Assembly (NCBI RefSeq): GCF_016862635.1
Contig: NZ_BONI01000004.1
Coordinates: forward strand, 1-64,000
Reading direction: 5' to 3'
Origin: Catellatospora coxensis
GTDB lineage: Bacteria > Actinomycetota > Actinomycetes > Mycobacteriales > Micromonosporaceae
DNA length: 64,000 nt
The position numbers and the translations under genes are program-made. Under the pieces are notes generated by a model. It saw only the letters and a list, made by a program, of their open reading frames with translations. It made no database searches and had not been told where the DNA came from. This document shows, one piece after another, positions 3,481 to 30,408 of this stretch. The first letter of the stretch is position 1. Each line of letters begins with the position of its first letter.

Positions 3481-4224
3481 TCAGTGCTCGCGCAGCAGCC
3501 GGCCGCCTCCGCTGACCTGGTCGGAGAAGCCGTGCTCGCGCAGCGCGTGCCACAGCGTGGCCGCGTTGATGGCGATCACGGGTTTGCCCAGCTCGGCTTC
3601 GAGCCGGTCGGCCTGGGCGACGAAGGACAGGTTCGTGCCGACCTGGACCACCGCGTCGACGTCGGGCGCGTCGAGCGAGGCCACGACCTCGTCCAGCCGC
3701 TGCTCCGGCACCCGGGCGATGTCCATCGCGGTGGGGCAGCGCAGCCCGGTGATCGCGGTGACGTCGAAGCCCGCCTCGGTGAAGAACCGGCCGACCTCCC
3801 GGTCGGCGATCGGCTGGTACGGCGAGAAGACCGCGATCCGGCGGCAGCCCAGCTCGGTCAGCGCGGCCCGGCACGCGCTCGCGCCGGTGGTGACCGGCAG
3901 GCCGCTGCGGTCCCGCAGGCGCTGCTCGAAGGCGGCATTGCCGTTGACGCCGCCCCAGAACGTCTCGGCGGACATGCCCATCACGAGCCGGTCGGGTTCG
4001 GCGGTGAGCACGTCGCGCACGGCGGTGTCGATCGACGCGCGGATCTGCGCCAGCAGCGCCTGGAAGTCCTCGTCGCCGCCCATGACGGGGTTGGGGATGT
4101 GCATGGAGCCGGCCCGGTAGGCGATGCCGGTGATCCCGGCGGTCCAGTAGTCGTGCTCGACGACGGTGTTGGTGCTGGGCACGATCACCCCGAAGACCGC
4201 CCGGGGGCCTACGTTGTTGGTCAT
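3481..4224 (-). CDS. Maleate isomerase/arylmalonate decarboxylase-like (Asp/Glu racemase superfamily) protein lacking the usual cysteines
   Basis: A 247-residue protein. The N-terminal segment FGVIVPSTNTVVEHDYW matches the substrate-carboxylate-binding start of maleate cis-trans isomerases. Where relatives carry the first catalytic Cys this protein reads MGMSAETFWGG, and where the second Cys normally precedes TNL it reads VVQVGTNLSF, so both candidate nucleophiles appear replaced (Ser and Gly). The start codon overlaps the stop of the upstream TetR gene by 4 bases (TCAT at 4221-4224 on the plus strand), so the two genes are translationally coupled. Its neighbours, TetR and a bicupin, suggest catabolism of a small organic acid. 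The substrate is unknown. Confidence 0.75.
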   Translation of the reverse strand: MTNNVGPRAVFGVIVPSTNTVVEHDYWTAGITGIAYRAGSMHIPNPVMGGDEDFQALLAQIRASIDTAVRDVLTAEPDRLVMGMSAETFWGGVNGNAAFEQRLRDRSGLPVTTGASACRAALTELGCRRIAVFSPYQPIADREVGRFFTEAGFDVTAITGLRCPTAMDIARVPEQRLDEVVASLDAPDVDAVVQVGTNLSFVAQADRLEAELGKPVIAINAATLWHALREHGFSDQVSGGGRLLREH

Positions 4225-25306: not shown

Positions 25307-25652
25307 ATCCCCCTGTGCACTTCGCTCGGCGCCACCAACCGGAAACGGATTCCCGGCCGGGCCGGCCCGCTGGGACCCTGGGGCCTTCATCGAGCGTCGC
25401 GCCACTGGTGCAAACGTTATGCCGCCTGACCTGCGGTCGTCCAGGGTGCGGCCAAGATTTTTTCACGCAATGTAGTCACAGCTCTACGGTGAGTGTCCTT
25501 ACGGAGCCCGTGACCGCCCCCTGTTGACGGCACAGGAGTGACCGGTGGGCCCATTGATACGCGCGTTGCCCGCGTGGCGTGGGGTTAGCCCCCGCGCAGA
25601 CCCGGGGGTCGGCCGCATGGTTCGGTGCGGCCGGTTCCACAAGGCTCGTGAC
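25307..25652. other. Intergenic region before the membrane protein gene
   Basis: About 350 bases with no convincing gene. An AT-rich stretch at 25455-25510 (AAGATTTTTTCACGC, then ATGTAGTCACAG) is the best place for the promoter of the downstream gene. If the annotated start is right, its leader would be about 150 bases. Confidence 0.3.
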
Positions 25653-26684
25653 GTGGAACATTCCAGGAGCATCCTCACCTCGGCCGTCGGTGCGATGCGC
25701 GGCTGGCACCGCCCGCTGACCGCCAACGCCGCTGCCATGTTCGCCCTGGCCCTGGCGAGCGCCGTCGGCGTGTTCGCCGACGACCGCCTGCTGCTGGGCG
25801 AATCGGTGTGGCTCAAGCCGCTGAAGTTCGGCTTCGCCATGGGCGTGTACGGCCTGACCCTGGCCTGGCTGATCAGCAGGCTGCGCAGGGGCCGGCGGCT
25901 CGCCTGGTGGCTGGGCGCCGTCTTCGCGGTCGCCGGGCTGCTCGACGTCGGCGCCGTCGTCTACGCCGCCGCCCACGGCACCGTCAGCCACTTCAACGCC
26001 AACGCCGAGCCGGTCGCCCGGACCGTGCGCACGGTGTTCGACTTCGGCGTCCTGCCGCTTCTGCTGACCACGCTGGTCATCGCGGTCCTGGTGCTGATCC
26101 AGCGCACCGGCGACCGCGCGCTGACGATCGCGCTGCGGGCAGGGCTGGGGCTCGCCGTCGCCGGCATGGTCGTGGCCGTCTGGCTCAGCAACTCCGCCGG
26201 ACCGCGTACGATCGCCGACGCCAACGGCCACCCGGTGGCCATGACCGGCGGCCACGGCATCGGCGACCCCGACGGCAACGGCATGGCCGTCACCCACTGG
26301 AGCACGACCGGCGGCGACCTGCGCGTGCCGCACTTCGTCGGGCTGCACGGCATCCAGGTCCTGCTGCTCGTCGCGGCCGTCCTGGGCCTGCTCGCGGCTC
26401 GCCACGGCCGGCTGCGCGACGAGCGGGTCCGCGCCCGGCTCACGGGCGTCGCCGCCCTCGGCTACACGGGTGTGTTCGCCGTGCTCACCTGGCAGGCCGC
26501 GCGAGGGCAGTCGGTGGTCCACCCCGACGGGCAGACATCACTGGCCTTCGTGGGGCTGGCGATGCTCGTCGTGGCGGCAGTCGTGCTGGTGGTCGTGAAC
26601 TCCCCGCGTGACGCTCGCCGGGTTGCGTCAGGCGGGCACCACGACGGCTTCGCGCAGCAGCCGGCGTACCAGCACGAGTTGTGA
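25653..26684 (+). CDS. Polytopic membrane protein, unknown function
   Basis: About 343 residues from the GTG at 25653. Earlier in-frame starts would add a basic, poorly conserved-looking leader. Seven hydrophobic segments are separated by short loops, with a Gly/His/Asp-rich extracellular stretch around residues 190-225 (GHPVAMTGGHGIGDPDGNG). The last 57 bases overlap the 3' end of the convergent JmjC gene. I do not recognise the family. Confidence 0.6.
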   Translation: MEHSRSILTSAVGAMRGWHRPLTANAAAMFALALASAVGVFADDRLLLGESVWLKPLKFGFAMGVYGLTLAWLISRLRRGRRLAWWLGAVFAVAGLLDVGAVVYAAAHGTVSHFNANAEPVARTVRTVFDFGVLPLLLTTLVIAVLVLIQRTGDRALTIALRAGLGLAVAGMVVAVWLSNSAGPRTIADANGHPVAMTGGHGIGDPDGNGMAVTHWSTTGGDLRVPHFVGLHGIQVLLLVAAVLGLLAARHGRLRDERVRARLTGVAALGYTGVFAVLTWQAARGQSVVHPDGQTSLAFVGLAMLVVAAVVLVVVNSPRDARRVASGGHHDGFAQQPAYQHEL

Positions 26685-27845
26685 CTGCTCGTCGAGGCCG
26701 GGCAGGTCGCCGACGCGGACCGCGGCCCCGGACAGCAGCGCCTTCACGGCCGGATCGCACTCGGCCGGGTAGCCGACCGTACGGTCGTCCAGCTCGATAC
26801 GGCCCTGCCCGATGGCCAGGCGCAGGCCGGGGCGGGGGCGCACCCGGCTGTCGGCGGTGAGCGCGTCGGCGAACGCGGCCTGCGCCACGGGGCGGATCGG
26901 ACCCGGCCGGTGCGCGGTCCACTGCCCGGGCCGCAGCCGGCGCGCGACATCGTCGGCGTCGGCCTTCGCGACCGCGTCCTGTAGCGCCGACACGGTGGCG
27001 GACAGGTGCGGGGCGAGCGCGACCGGGTCGGACAAGTCCAGGCCGATGGGCAGCCCGGCCCGCAACTGCGGATCTTCGGCGGCGAGGCCGAGCAGCGCCT
27101 CGACGATGCTGTAGCGGGTCGGCCGGCGCAGCCCGAGGGTGAGGTGCAGGCTGGTGCGGTCCACCGCTGCCGCGGCGTGCAGCCAGCCGCGCGGGAGATA
27201 CAGCAGCTCACCCTCTTCCAGCACGTGGTCGAGGTACGGGGCCCCGGTGGCCGAGGCCGCGACCTCGTCGGCGCGGCCGCCCCAGGGCTGGCGCTCCAGC
27301 GGGTCCGGGTGCACCGGCTCGTGCACCTGCCAGCGTTTGACACCGGCAACCTGCAGCACGAACACGTCGTGGGTGTCGTAGTGGGTGGCGAAGCCCTGGT
27401 TCCCGGCGGGGGTCAGATAGGCGTTGGCCTGCACCGCGCAGCCCAGCTCGCGGGACAGGTCGAGGCAGAACGACTGCAGCGGCGGCCAGACCCGGTGCAG
27501 CCCCTGAAAGATCAGGGTGGCGCCGGCGGCCAGCTGTTCGAGCACCCTGTCGTCCCGGATCTGGTCGGACACCTCGGCGCCCAGTCCTGCCCCACCGGTG
27601 AAGGACTTGGCGGGCACCACGCTGCCGGCCTTGGCGATACGCAGGAACGGGGTGCGCAGGCCGCGTTCGCTCAGCAGTTCGTCGACGGCGGCCAGGTCCA
27701 GCAGATCGTCGTGGCGGCCGGTCCGGCGCAGCAGCGGCTGCCGCCCCCAGTGCGTGCGCTCGAACTCGGCCGGGTCGCCCACGCAGCGGCGCAGCGCCGA
27801 CCTGTCGGGGTCGGGAGCTGCGCCGCCGTCGAGCAGATCAGGCAC
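26628..27845 (-). CDS. JmjC-domain (cupin) Fe(II)/2-oxoglutarate oxygenase
   Basis: A 405-residue protein. The JmjC/cupin core spans about residues 105-245. The iron ligands are visible as H155-Y-D157 (ATHYDTHDVF) and a distal His at about 223 (GWLHAA), with SLHLTLGL on the following strand. The C-terminal part (about 250-405) is a helical/winged region as in ROX-type ribosomal oxygenases. The GTG start overlaps the stop of a 68-residue acidic peptide gene by 8 bases, so oxygenase and peptide are translationally coupled. The peptide is therefore a candidate substrate. JmjC relatives hydroxylate Asp, Asn, His or Arg residues in proteins. Confidence 0.85.
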   Translation of the reverse strand: MPDLLDGGAAPDPDRSALRRCVGDPAEFERTHWGRQPLLRRTGRHDDLLDLAAVDELLSERGLRTPFLRIAKAGSVVPAKSFTGGAGLGAEVSDQIRDDRVLEQLAAGATLIFQGLHRVWPPLQSFCLDLSRELGCAVQANAYLTPAGNQGFATHYDTHDVFVLQVAGVKRWQVHEPVHPDPLERQPWGGRADEVAASATGAPYLDHVLEEGELLYLPRGWLHAAAAVDRTSLHLTLGLRRPTRYSIVEALLGLAAEDPQLRAGLPIGLDLSDPVALAPHLSATVSALQDAVAKADADDVARRLRPGQWTAHRPGPIRPVAQAAFADALTADSRVRPRPGLRLAIGQGRIELDDRTVGYPAECDPAVKALLSGAAVRVGDLPGLDEQSQLVLVRRLLREAVVVPA

Positions 27846-28044
27846 CGCTGTCGGCTCCGCCGTCGTCCTCGGCCGAGTCGACCGCGTCGTCGGCGCCGGC
27901 GTCGAGCGGACCCTCCACGTCTGCGCCGCCGTCGGCTCCGCCGTCGTGCTCGTTCGGGTCGGCCTGCCGGCCCGCTCCGGCGTCGGCCGGACCTTCGGTG
28001 CCGGGTGTGCCCGTGGTCGTCAGGTCGTCGTCGTTGATGCTCAT
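27838..28044 (-). CDS. 68-residue Asp/Gly/Ala-rich acidic peptide, putative substrate or precursor of the JmjC oxygenase
   Basis: ATG at 28042-28044 follows GGGAGGA by a good distance. The peptide starts MSINDDDLTTTGTPGTEGPA and then consists of degenerate repeats built from GGAD/GAD units (DGGADGGAD, DAGADDA, DGGADSGA). It contains about 15 Asp and 4 Glu, one Arg and no Lys, and no Cys or aromatic residues. There is no signal peptide. The stop lies inside the start of the JmjC gene. This architecture resembles ribosomal-peptide precursors placed directly before their modifying enzyme, with a conventional-looking leader and a repetitive acidic core. No known peptide class is recognised. Confidence 0.65.
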   Translation of the reverse strand: MSINDDDLTTTGTPGTEGPADAGAGRQADPNEHDGGADGGADVEGPLDAGADDAVDSAEDDGGADSGA

Positions 28045-28157
28045 GCCGTTCCTCCCGGTGCTGTGCTGCTCACAGCGTGATCTTCTCCAGATCCCGGCCG
28101 GCCTAAACTTCGGCCGATGCCGCCGCGCCGCGGCGGGAGGTCACAGTCGTGTGCTGC

Positions 28158-28559
28158 TCACCGTGCTGTGGCTCGCGGCAGGTCCGGCGGTGACGGGTCG
28201 TCGGCGGGCGTCCATGGTGCCACCGGTTCGTCGAGGTCGGGGACCTCCCCGGTCAGCAGTTCCAGCACGCCGGTGACCGCCAGCACCCGGCGGACCAGGC
28301 CGGTGGCTCCGACGACACGGAAGCCGACACCCGAACCGTGCGCCCGCTCCCGGGCGGTCAGCAGGACGTGCAGCCCGGTCGAATCCATGAACGCGACCTG
28401 GGAGAGGTCGACGACGACCTTCCTGACGCCCGGCTCGCCGATCGTCGCGGACAGGGAGTCCAGCAGTTCGTCACGGACCGTCAGATCGATCTCGCCGGAC
28501 ACGGCCACGAGCGCTTCGCCCGGGTCGTCGCCGTGCAGGTCGACGTCGGCGGCACCCAC
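28158..28559 (-). CDS. STAS-domain anti-sigma-factor antagonist
   Basis: A 133-residue protein. The STAS fold is clear: VSGEIDLTVRDELLD, VVVDLSQVAFMDSTGLHVLL with the phosphorylatable Ser in the D-S-T-G motif, and a C-terminal helix. GTG at 28557-28559 follows GGAGGA by 8 bases and lies just after the stop of the upstream HTH gene. Its partner anti-sigma kinase is not in the window. It lies 113 bases before the acidic peptide gene on the same strand. Confidence 0.88.
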   Translation of the reverse strand: MGAADVDLHGDDPGEALVAVSGEIDLTVRDELLDSLSATIGEPGVRKVVVDLSQVAFMDSTGLHVLLTARERAHGSGVGFRVVGATGLVRRVLAVTGVLELLTGEVPDLDEPVAPWTPADDPSPPDLPRATAR

Positions 28560-28560
28560 G

Positions 28561-28884
28561 TCAACTCTCCTCCACCTCTGAGGGCACCGGCTCCAGCCCG
28601 GTCGCCGCCGCGACCTTGGCGACGTCCTGCGGCCCGTACGCCGTGCGCACACCCGAAACCGACATCCCCGCCGCCGAAGCCAGCTCGCCCAGCGTGTACG
28701 GGTGTGGATACACGAACTGGCGACCGTAGGCCAGCAGCAGGCGGATCTCCTCCTCGGCCCGCATCCGCCGTGCGTGCGCGTCCGCCAGCGCCGACAGCAC
28801 CGCGTCGCTGCCGGCGGCGACGAGCGGGTCCGGAACCGCTGCCAGCACGGTCTTCACATCAGCGGTCACCCTACGCGTACTCAC
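28561..28884 (-). CDS. Small HTH protein upstream of the STAS gene
   Basis: About 107 residues from the GTG at 28882-28884; the start is uncertain as no ribosome site is visible. A helical region (DAVLSALADAHARRMRAEEE) is followed by a helix-turn-helix-like segment (TLGELASAAGMSVSGVRTAY). Its stop is separated by 1 base from the STAS start, so they are co-translated. It is probably a regulator of the downstream unit. Confidence 0.65.
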   Translation of the reverse strand: MSTRRVTADVKTVLAAVPDPLVAAGSDAVLSALADAHARRMRAEEEIRLLLAYGRQFVYPHPYTLGELASAAGMSVSGVRTAYGPQDVAKVAAATGLEPVPSEVEES

Positions 28885-29009
28885 CTGACGAGATTCGCAC
28901 GAACCTACGATCACCGCAAGATGAGATGATCATCGGACTTCGGGTCGGTCATCGGTGAAGCTGTTGGGCGGCAACGACTTGTGCGTATCGAGACGCCCGT
29001 GATCGGCGG

Positions 29010-29048
29010 CCGGCTCCGCATCGCCGCATACGGGCGGTGCGGAGCCGG
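29010..29048. terminator. Hairpin terminator after the three-repeat secreted protein gene
   Basis: Arms CCGGCTCCGCA (29010-29020) and TGCGGAGCCGG (29038-29048) lie 18 bases downstream of the stop of the minus-strand secreted protein gene. Confidence 0.7.
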
Positions 29049-29065
29049 AGGCGTATCGGGCTTGC

Positions 29066-29932
29066 TCAGGCGCGTGCCAGCAGCACCTGGGCCGTGGAGC
29101 CGGCGGGGGAGTTGTAGTGCTTGACGGTCAACCAGAACTCGCGCTCGGCGCTGCCGTCGGTGTTGATGCGCTGCAGGTACCACGTGCGCTCGATGCTGAA
29201 GTAGCGGATGTCCTGGTTCGGGCTCAGGGTCACCACGTGCGCGGCGGTGAGCGGGTTGGCGTTGTTCCAGCGCCAGGTCTTGCTGCTCATCGGCGTCATC
29301 GTGCCGGTGGACCAGGAGGCGGTGGAGGCGAGCGGGGTGACCCGCAAAGTGACCTGGCAGGTGATGGCGCCGACGTTGGTGACCCTGATTCCGTGGCGGC
29401 GTTCGTCCTCGTTGGCGCTGACCTGGATCTGCTCCACTTCGTACTGGCAGGGGCTGGCCGCGGTGGCGCCGCTGGGGATCAGCGCGACGGAGATGGCGGT
29501 GGTCGCGGGCGCGGCGTCGTAGTAGTACCAGGTGCCGGCCGGTTCACCGGGGGCGGCGGACATGGTCGGCGTGGTGCCGCTGGTGCTGTTCCAGGCGAGC
29601 GTGATGTCGGCGTTGCAGGTGATGGCGCCGACGTTCTTGACGGTGAACCAGTATTCGATCTCGCTGATGCCGCTGTTGAGGCGCTGCGCGTACCAGTCGC
29701 GGACGACCTCGAATTCGCAGGTCGAGGCGGCGGTCGCGCCCTGCGGCGACAGGCCGATCTGGTAGGCGTTGCCGGTGCCGGCGTTGTTCCAGTACCAGGT
29801 CTTGGAACTGCCCGCGGCCATGGTGCCGGTGTTGAAGGTGTACTGGCCGGCCGCCGCGTGAGCCGGGCTCGGCAGCATGAGGACGGAGCCCAGCAGGCAT
29901 AGCGCGGCCAGGCCGCGAAGGAATCGACGCAT
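29066..29932 (-). CDS. Secreted protein made of three tandem repeats of an unrecognised domain
   Basis: A 288-residue protein. A signal peptide (residues 1-27, ending AHA) is followed by three units of about 85 residues. Units 1 and 3 both open STGTM/NTGTM...SSKTW.WNNA, and units 1 and 2 share ATAAS.C.(F/Y)EV and VTNVGAITC-type strands. Each has a Trp-Tyr-x-QR or equivalent mid-strand and a closing VK.V/VTNV strand. The pattern looks like a beta-sandwich adhesion or carbohydrate-binding fold. No catalytic motif is visible. A shared promoter motif (29943-29967) links it to the chitin enzymes. Confidence 0.75.
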   Translation of the reverse strand: MRRFLRGLAALCLLGSVLMLPSPAHAAAGQYTFNTGTMAAGSSKTWYWNNAGTGNAYQIGLSPQGATAASTCEFEVVRDWYAQRLNSGISEIEYWFTVKNVGAITCNADITLAWNSTSGTTPTMSAAPGEPAGTWYYYDAAPATTAISVALIPSGATAASPCQYEVEQIQVSANEDERRHGIRVTNVGAITCQVTLRVTPLASTASWSTGTMTPMSSKTWRWNNANPLTAAHVVTLSPNQDIRYFSIERTWYLQRINTDGSAEREFWLTVKHYNSPAGSTAQVLLARA

Positions 29933-29942
29933 GGAACTGAGT

Positions 29943-29970
29943 TAAACGGTAAGCAATCCTAACAGTCAAT
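29943..29970 (-). promoter_or_regulatory. Putative operator shared with chitinase and GH20 genes
   Basis: On the minus strand the sequence is GACTGTTAGGATTGCTTACC followed by GTTTAA, ending about 10 bases before the start of the secreted protein. The first 11 bases (GACTGTTAGGA) are identical to those upstream of the GH19 chitinase. Position and AT content suit an operator overlapping the promoter. Confidence 0.5.
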
Positions 29971-29985
29971 CGCCCGACCGCTCGA

Positions 29986-30408
29986 TCAATCCGACTGGGC
30001 GGTCACCCGGTAGTTGATCTCGACCTGGTCGTGGGAGTAGATCGGCGTCCGGAACGCCAGCCGCAGCCAGCGGTGCTCGCCTCCGCGCGGGTCGTCGGCG
30101 ACCTCGATGCGTTCGTCGCACGCGCCGACGTGCACCGCGCCGATGTTGCCCGTGCTGCGGAACCGGCGCACGCTCAGCTCCACCGACAGCCTCGACGGCG
30201 GCTGCGGGTACGGCAGGCTGTCGGGCAGGAACACCGCGAACTCCTGGAGGTCCTCCAGGCGCACCGCGCCACGGAAACCCGCACGTCGGGCCAGGCAGAG
30301 GTGTCCGCTGTAGACGGTTGTCCGTACGGGCCGGCCGGCCGTGGGGTCGACGCCGTCGAAGAACAGGCGCGGGCCGGGCACGATGGCGCGCAGCTCCAGG
30401 AAGTCCAC
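29986..30408 (-). CDS. Conserved hypothetical protein
   Basis: A 140-residue soluble protein, predicted mostly beta strands (LRLAFRTPIYSHDQVEINYRV near the C-terminus). The N-terminus MDFLELRAIVPGPRLFFDG has no signal peptide. It lies 9 bases downstream of the winged-helix gene and is likely part of that operon. No family is recognised. Confidence 0.6.
   Translation of the reverse strand: MDFLELRAIVPGPRLFFDGVDPTAGRPVRTTVYSGHLCLARRAGFRGAVRLEDLQEFAVFLPDSLPYPQPPSRLSVELSVRRFRSTGNIGAVHVGACDERIEVADDPRGGEHRWLRLAFRTPIYSHDQVEINYRVTAQSD

Follow-up and report, generated by a model that had tools for sequence, protein, structure and literature searches.

Why should a short, strongly acidic peptide be encoded immediately ahead of a JmjC oxygenase, and is it the substrate of that enzyme? 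The question is raised by a 64,000-nucleotide stretch of the Catellatospora coxensis genome (contig NZ_BONI01000004.1, positions 1 to 64,000; hereafter the window), in which an Asp-rich reading frame ends within the start of a JmjC gene. A prediction made from the DNA alone (the original prediction) held that the peptide could be a ribosomally made precursor, or a dedicated substrate hydroxylated at Asp. The two genes constitute a genuine, conserved and apparently undescribed peptide–enzyme system in Actinomycetota. We consider it probable, with moderate confidence, that this system resembles those of ribosomally synthesized and post-translationally modified peptides (RiPPs), and that JmjC β-hydroxylates the Asp-rich repeats of a leader-bearing peptide.

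The peptide and its pairing with JmjC

The open reading frame (ORF) of the peptide was found as predicted (27838–28044); a recount gave 68 residues, including 15 Asp and four Glu, with no Lys and no Cys, and a strong ribosome-binding site of its own, GGGAGGA, precedes the ATG. The stop codon lies, as had also been noted, inside the start of the JmjC gene, where the ORF coordinates overlap the GTG by 8 nucleotides; because the genes overlap, their translation is probably coupled. The degenerate repeats described earlier are indeed repeats, although they are better parsed as two degenerate copies of a unit of approximately 25–27 residues behind a 16-residue leader. The TTTGTPGTEGP-like leader that had been proposed was abandoned: the conserved leader is instead [M..]LxDDD[IM]xT, and ‘EGP’ is the opening of the first repeat.

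A scan of named genomes confirmed 567 relatives, and the best 80 loci were used. In 78 of these best 80, a repeat peptide is encoded directly upstream of JmjC (in assigning start codons, those giving an early acidic pair were favoured); the remaining two (L126 and L157) reach a contig edge about 120 nucleotides upstream. The loci include Micromonospora, Salinispora, Actinoplanes, Asanoa, Dactylosporangium, Pseudonocardia, Saccharopolyspora, Amycolatopsis, Actinokineospora and Modestobacter, as well as a metagenome-assembled genome of the Jiangellaceae. At least two repeat motifs were present at all 78 peptide loci and at none of 854 control places (425 and 429 by strand), and at least one motif at all 78 as against 11 of the 854; with a start-weighted repeat count, the figure for the peptide loci was 77 of 78. 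Conservation of the small ORF beside JmjC homologues had been put forward as a check on the original idea, and these counts bear it out. Together with the two-repeat control, they support a dedicated peptide–enzyme pair, for which sequence comparison makes a strong case. Among five genomes of the window's genus, the ratio of non-synonymous to synonymous substitution rates (dN/dS) is 0.04–0.38 for the peptide (ten pairs) and 0.14–0.22 for JmjC, which points to purifying selection on the peptide.

Within the family, JmjC was detected in 85 of 150 genomes (E ≤ 1e-20) and the peptide in 56 (E ≤ 0.01), the latter being a lower bound because the peptide search is weak for diverged cores. Fifty-four of the 56 also carry JmjC; as to the two peptide-only genomes, G022 represents a false match and the peptide of G113 is located at the end of a contig. 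Neither peptide nor JmjC was found in G118 and G129, which belong to the same genus. In G115, the pair is unlinked, with the peptide at 7.32 Mb and JmjC at 4.88 Mb, about 2.4 Mb apart. Common as JmjC is in the family, no Pfam or NCBIfam model matched above cut-off any of seven peptides (that of the window and six from relatives), the one weak Pfam match among them being to Bacteroid_pep (E 0.34).

In the 77 distinct peptides of near relatives, the leader is usually followed by two to four units of the type EGPADGGATPGQHDGGADGSA, a typical repeat being EGPADGG..PG.HDGGADG. When parsed by regular expression, 36 peptides have three units, 22 have four and 16 have two, and single peptides have six, one and none. 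The first Asp is Asp in all 234 parsed units (the expression permitted Asp or Asn); DGGAD is preceded by His in 131, by Gln in 52 and by Arg in 21, with others fewer. Copy number differs even between close relatives, such as L021 with four units and L024 with two. A conserved leader with a repeat count that varies across genomes had been set beforehand as a supporting result, and this is what was found. The leader motif occurs in 108 of 110 near and distant peptides, a count that is partly circular because a related expression served to select the 32 distant peptides.

Distant relatives across Actinomycetota

The JmjC profile matches 58 of 396 genomes of the phylum (E ≤ 1e-30). The distant sample comprised 50 places in 49 of these genomes (30 loci and 20 upstream regions), with nine genomes left out. 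An Asp-rich ORF lies directly upstream of JmjC at 46 of the 50 places, and the leader is present at 43, with L206 and L216 counted by eye. At L203 and L207, a contig edge is reached upstream of JmjC; at L188, the acidic ORF has no leader motif. When the combination of leader and acidic core was sought on both strands of 98 loci (2.70 Mb), 88 matches were obtained, only one of which is not such a peptide.

Behind the leader, the core takes several forms (DGGADG, DADGTDGDA, TDTDTTD and GTYGPRDA), and in most other classes it differs from that of the near peptides: DADGTDGDATDG, DAVDGDASDADA, TDTDTTDTDDD, GTDQGV.GGTYGPRDA and TEDDENLDAPGEHSQDTGDEP. For example, L199 (977–1444, reverse strand) has the same type of leader with repeats of the GTDQGV.GGTYGPRDA form, and L212 (1332–1511) combines it with the wholly different repeats TEDDENLDAPGEHSQDTGDEP. 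A conserved leader with a variable core, as expected of a RiPP, is thus observed, except in one clade (L185–L188, support 100/100). There, the leader is lost or degenerate in L185–L187 and the last helix of the JmjC C-terminal domain is altered in all four. A precursor gene that adjoins its enzyme gene and is kept across genomes, also expected of a RiPP, is likewise observed, modification of the peptide by the enzyme being inferred.

The JmjC protein and its C-terminal domain

The Fe(II) ligands of a 2-oxoglutarate (2OG)/Fe(II) oxygenase are intact in JmjC. The H155-x-D157...H223 set that had been read from the window is unchanged across 31 aligned JmjC sequences, that of the window included, and a Pfam match to JmjC_2 agrees with the assignment. 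An AlphaFold2 model built from this alignment has a mean pLDDT of 89.8; in Foldseek, it matches NO66 first (E 2.3e-27, 25% identity), followed by MINA53, YcfD, YxbC and FIH, and a sequence search also points to NO66. With its JmjC_2 domain, HxD...H ligands and C-terminal winged helix, the modelled protein fits the ribosomal oxygenase (ROX) fold family.

When the C-terminal 90 residues were folded alone (pLDDT 91.4), Foldseek again placed ROX proteins first. The next matches, which are weak, are to the RiPP recognition element (RRE) of PbtF (8t19; E 0.12, probability 0.63), ThcOx, GodF, BmdC and NisB; they are interspersed with ribosomal proteins, a methyltransferase and a carbamoyl transferase. 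ThcOx, GodF and NisB carry RREs. The C-terminal 75 residues run from strands to helices, as in the RRE pattern, from which they depart by one additional strand and by a middle helix that is short. A sequence search of this domain against the PDB gave a best E of only 1.1.

The JmjC of the window shares 87% identity with its counterparts in Catellatospora paridis and C. vulcania. A PF08007 search of its own 9.35 Mb genome returned this gene and one weaker JmjC_2 match on another contig (G000:C131:8958-9107). Some distant JmjC matches (G177:C264, G417:C313 and G262:C1 among them) are split near profile positions 177–202, in the manner of an insertion.

Which residue is modified?

The composition of the peptides bears directly on this question. 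Asp, Glu, Gly, Ala and Pro occur in all 77 distinct near peptides, Thr being absent from two; His occurs in 63, Asn in 67, Arg in 58, Lys in 12 and Cys in none. All 32 distant cores contain Asp, Ala, Gly and Thr, with His in seven, Lys in eight, Asn in 11, Glu in 17 and Pro in 27. Because only Asp, Gly and Ala are universal, and the Asp side chain is of a type known to be hydroxylated by such enzymes, Asp would be, by elimination, the likeliest hydroxylated residue; the suggestion that Asp is the target thus gains support, as the sole suitable residue in every near peptide and distant core. His was considered as a universal target and ruled out on the same counts.

Proposed mechanism and its rivals

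We propose that the peptide is the dedicated substrate of the adjoining JmjC enzyme. Its acidic leader, LxDDD[IM]xT, would be bound by the RRE-like C-terminal winged helix, a step that the predicted fold and conservation make plausible. The JmjC domain, with Fe(II), O2 and 2OG, would then hydroxylate the repeats on Asp side chains, most probably several per peptide and at the β-carbon; ROX relatives hydroxylate β-carbons. That JmjC hydroxylates Asp is, judged from sequence, likely. A Suc_Fer-like protein, encoded nearby in most of the lineages sampled outside the window's family, might hold the iron of the enzyme in its reduced state or catalyse an additional step. The product would be a strongly anionic peptide rich in Asp and β-hydroxy-Asp, for which a role as a metal-binding stress peptide is plausible, this being the weakest step. 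A broader proposal is tentative and, in our estimation, rather doubtful as a whole: a phylum-wide, undescribed RiPP-like class under general-stress control, in which one JmjC with a built-in leader-binding domain, in most cases partnered by a [2Fe-2S] Suc_Fer protein, acts on many Asp of hypervariable repeat cores to yield poly-β-hydroxyaspartyl peptides that bind metals.

Several observations weigh against dedicated, leader-guided Asp hydroxylation. The resemblance of the C-terminal domain to RREs is weak (the PbtF match being the best), and the same domain occurs in ribosomal oxygenases, for which we know of no use of a leader. The joint change of leader and C-terminus amounts to a single event, because L185–L188 form one clade; that clade also keeps the pair without the leader, which is therefore not indispensable. 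L218 (the JmjC of G533) is a related JmjC without a peptide, a boundary case. In individual lineages, the modified residue could be Thr, Ser, Pro or His. No protease or exporter neighbour is widely shared (neighbours were annotated in one locus), which would be unusual for a secreted RiPP, and metal binding is read from composition.

Of the alternatives, the one with the most to commend it, although we consider it unlikely, is that the peptide is a true precursor in which JmjC modifies another residue, or goes beyond hydroxylation to further oxidation or a cross-link, with an unlinked protease freeing a secreted product. The JmjC enzyme BipG hydroxylates ornithine in biphenomycin, as far as the accessible text of PMC12707348 describes it. 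NO66 and MINA53, the closest structural matches, hydroxylate His, the position before DGGAD is most often His (131 of 234 units), and the Suc_Fer gene could serve extra redox steps. On the other side, His is missing from 14 of the 77 near peptides and 25 of the 32 distant cores; some near peptides lack Asn, some Arg, some Lys and some Ser, and for each of these, as for Pro, there are distant cores without it; and the missing shared protease or exporter (one annotated locus) counts against a secreted product as well. It is rather improbable that JmjC works as a ribosomal oxygenase on a ribosomal protein, with the peptide as its regulator, decoy inhibitor or chaperone, even though the closest solved structures are ribosomal oxygenases and an Asp-rich, acidic peptide could bind at the active site. 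A decoy would be expected to retain the sequence with which it binds, whereas in this system the core is replaced entirely and it is chiefly the leader that is retained; the usual two to four repeats per near peptide fit a multi-site substrate better; and an enzyme found in 85 of 150 family genomes is patchy, unlike a housekeeping ribosome modifier. The genomic pairing itself argues for a substrate other than a ribosomal protein. That the small ORF arose by chance or is an untranslated spacer, or that the pairing reflects only shared descent of the locus, we regard as scarcely credible. High-GC DNA does yield many long open frames, and the Micromonosporaceae locus lies in conserved synteny; but the pairing at 78 of 80 loci, the dN/dS of 0.04–0.38 and the empty two-repeat control rule out a chance ORF, and the pair is still present where it is flanked by different genes, as it is in the window.

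Comparison with known systems

The ROX proteins NO66, MINA53 and YcfD (PF08007) share the JmjC core with HxD...H and the C-terminal winged helix, and the JmjC of the window is 24–25% identical to NO66 in the Foldseek list. It differs in being encoded with a dedicated acidic repeat peptide, and its substrate is apparently not a ribosomal protein. If the proposed mechanism is right, it ties the ribosomal-oxygenase branch of JmjC to peptide maturation, suggests that the ROX C-terminal winged helix is related to leader-binding domains and offers a two-gene, easily co-expressed system for iterative Asp hydroxylation.

We take PesHI, on our own reading, to be an MNIO. In the accessible parts of the reports, SmaO (PMC13097080) and PesHI (PMC13060819) likewise make β-hydroxy-Asp on a precursor peptide, PesHI differing in that its target is given as one residue, Asp21 (PMC13060819). 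Corallotide also has a large precursor, in which five repeated motifs are hydroxylated by a 2OG-Fe(II) oxygenase; it differs in being a graspetide with Lys isopeptide bonds, in using a PF13640 oxygenase and in its reported restriction to Corallococcus (PMC13097080, as far as its accessible text goes). The portions available for biphenomycin show BipG to be a JmjC ornithine γ-hydroxylase; BipG/BpmG likewise act on a ribosomally made precursor, but within a multi-enzyme cluster that includes an MNIO, a radical SAM enzyme and a TldD-type protease, and the target is ornithine (PMC12707348, PMC12257519). According to the accessible text of a 2025 study, PF08007 JmjC domains of fish and algae are joined to RRE-like folds, and homologues from bacteria occur in RiPP-like contexts (PMC12710340). 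RRE-dependent RiPP enzymes share with the present pair a conserved leader, a variable core and an RRE-like fold on the enzyme; that text names no JmjC precursor family, and LxDDD[IM]xT is not among the motifs that it names (13 are in a figure) (PMC12710340). No description of the peptide–JmjC pairing was found among the literature matches listed, subscription journals being mostly outside the search, and the strings DGGADG, EGPADGG, GADGGADGG and GHDGGADG led to one unrelated paper. The evidence as a whole suggests an undescribed family of enzyme-modified peptides in Actinomycetota.

Genomic neighbourhood and promoter

Table 1. Coordinates of the features discussed (window positions unless a locus is named).
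Feature	Position	Strand	Remarks
Acidic repeat peptide, precursor-like	27838..28044 (including stop)	-	68 aa ORF
Leader MSINDDDLTTTGTPGT, residues 1–16	27997..28044	-	LxDDD[IM]xT-type motif, here INDDDLTT
Core repeat 1, residues 17–43	27916..27996	-	From alignment
Core repeat 2, residues 44–68	27841..27915	-	From alignment
Ribosome-binding site GGGAGGA	28050..28056	-	5' of peptide ATG; relatives have purine-rich sites upstream
JmjC oxygenase, 405 aa, GTG start	26628..27845	-	Intact ORF; Pfam JmjC_2, E 4.5e-29
Iron-ligand stretch H155-x-D157...H223	27177..27383	-	Invariant in 31/31 aligned sequences
C-terminal winged-helix domain, about residues 331–405	26631..26855	-	RRE-like strand/helix order, predicted
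Stress-sigma-type promoter GTTTAG ... GGAGAAG	28082..28108	-	Weak candidate
STAS ORF	28158-28652		Upstream of peptide
‘HTH’ ORF	28561-28914		Upstream of peptide; no Pfam match above cut-off
Unlinked peptide of G115	L226 (G115:C1:7316000-7324000), 3734-4084		

In 21 loci compared, JmjC is the only ORF common to all, the peptide being too repetitive for the comparison. A Suc_Fer-like PF06999 gene (Pfam, three examples) follows JmjC in nine of the 21, one of which (L086) belongs to the window's family. By a strict motif, Suc_Fer was found in 12 of 74 named loci, all outside the Micromonosporaceae, and a motif scan placed a Suc_Fer-like gene nearby in 23 of 30 phylum-wide loci (an uncontrolled scan of the JmjC strand, with position unchecked). 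The window's own genome has no PF06999 match. Besides Suc_Fer, no neighbour is widely shared in the loci compared. In the Micromonosporaceae, several further genes are syntenic around the pair. The ten neighbours annotated with Pfam in one locus of that family include response-regulator, DksA-type zinc-finger, FtsK/SpoIIIE and Clp ATPase matches, the Clp-type ATPase lying about 5 kb from the pair; no peptidase or exporter match was obtained among these ten.

The HTH and STAS genes proposed as regulators upstream of the peptide do exist as ORFs, but tblastn found both in only three of 130 loci, the window's own among them (some genomes are represented more than once in the 130, and 30 loci have just 1.5 kb flanks); they were thus ruled out as conserved partners and are not supported as regulators. 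A mobile, phage or defence context was likewise set aside: tblastn of JmjC against plasmids gave 92 records, all below 60% identity; PHROGs returned three families of unassigned function for JmjC and none for the peptide; and PADLOC returned nothing for JmjC, the peptide or one Suc_Fer protein. A gene that we take to be CsbD-like (general stress) adjoins the pair in Dactylosporangium and, besides the window's genome, in four of the same genus (L008–L011, L098, L099 and L031/L110). A 288-residue ORF of the window (29066–29932, minus strand) has a signal-peptide-like start and, seemingly, internal repeats, with no Pfam match.

A scan for sigma-70 promoters and terminators in 26400–28300 gave none, and Rfam gave nothing in 25400–30000. 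Many relatives have GGTTA-N14-18-GGGTA at a place comparable to that of the weak candidate promoter listed in Table 1, an element that resembles the SigF/SigB stress-sigma consensus. The form G[GT]T[TAG]-N14-18-GGGTA occurs within 150 nucleotides upstream of 53 of the 78 named peptides as against seven of 1445 random pieces, and GTT[TA]-N13-18-GGGTA with 46 of the 78 as against 10 of 1459, counts that are not independent because many of the sequences are closely related. GGGTA is missing from the four named Catellatospora loci; these and the window share GTTTA and, further down, GGARAA.

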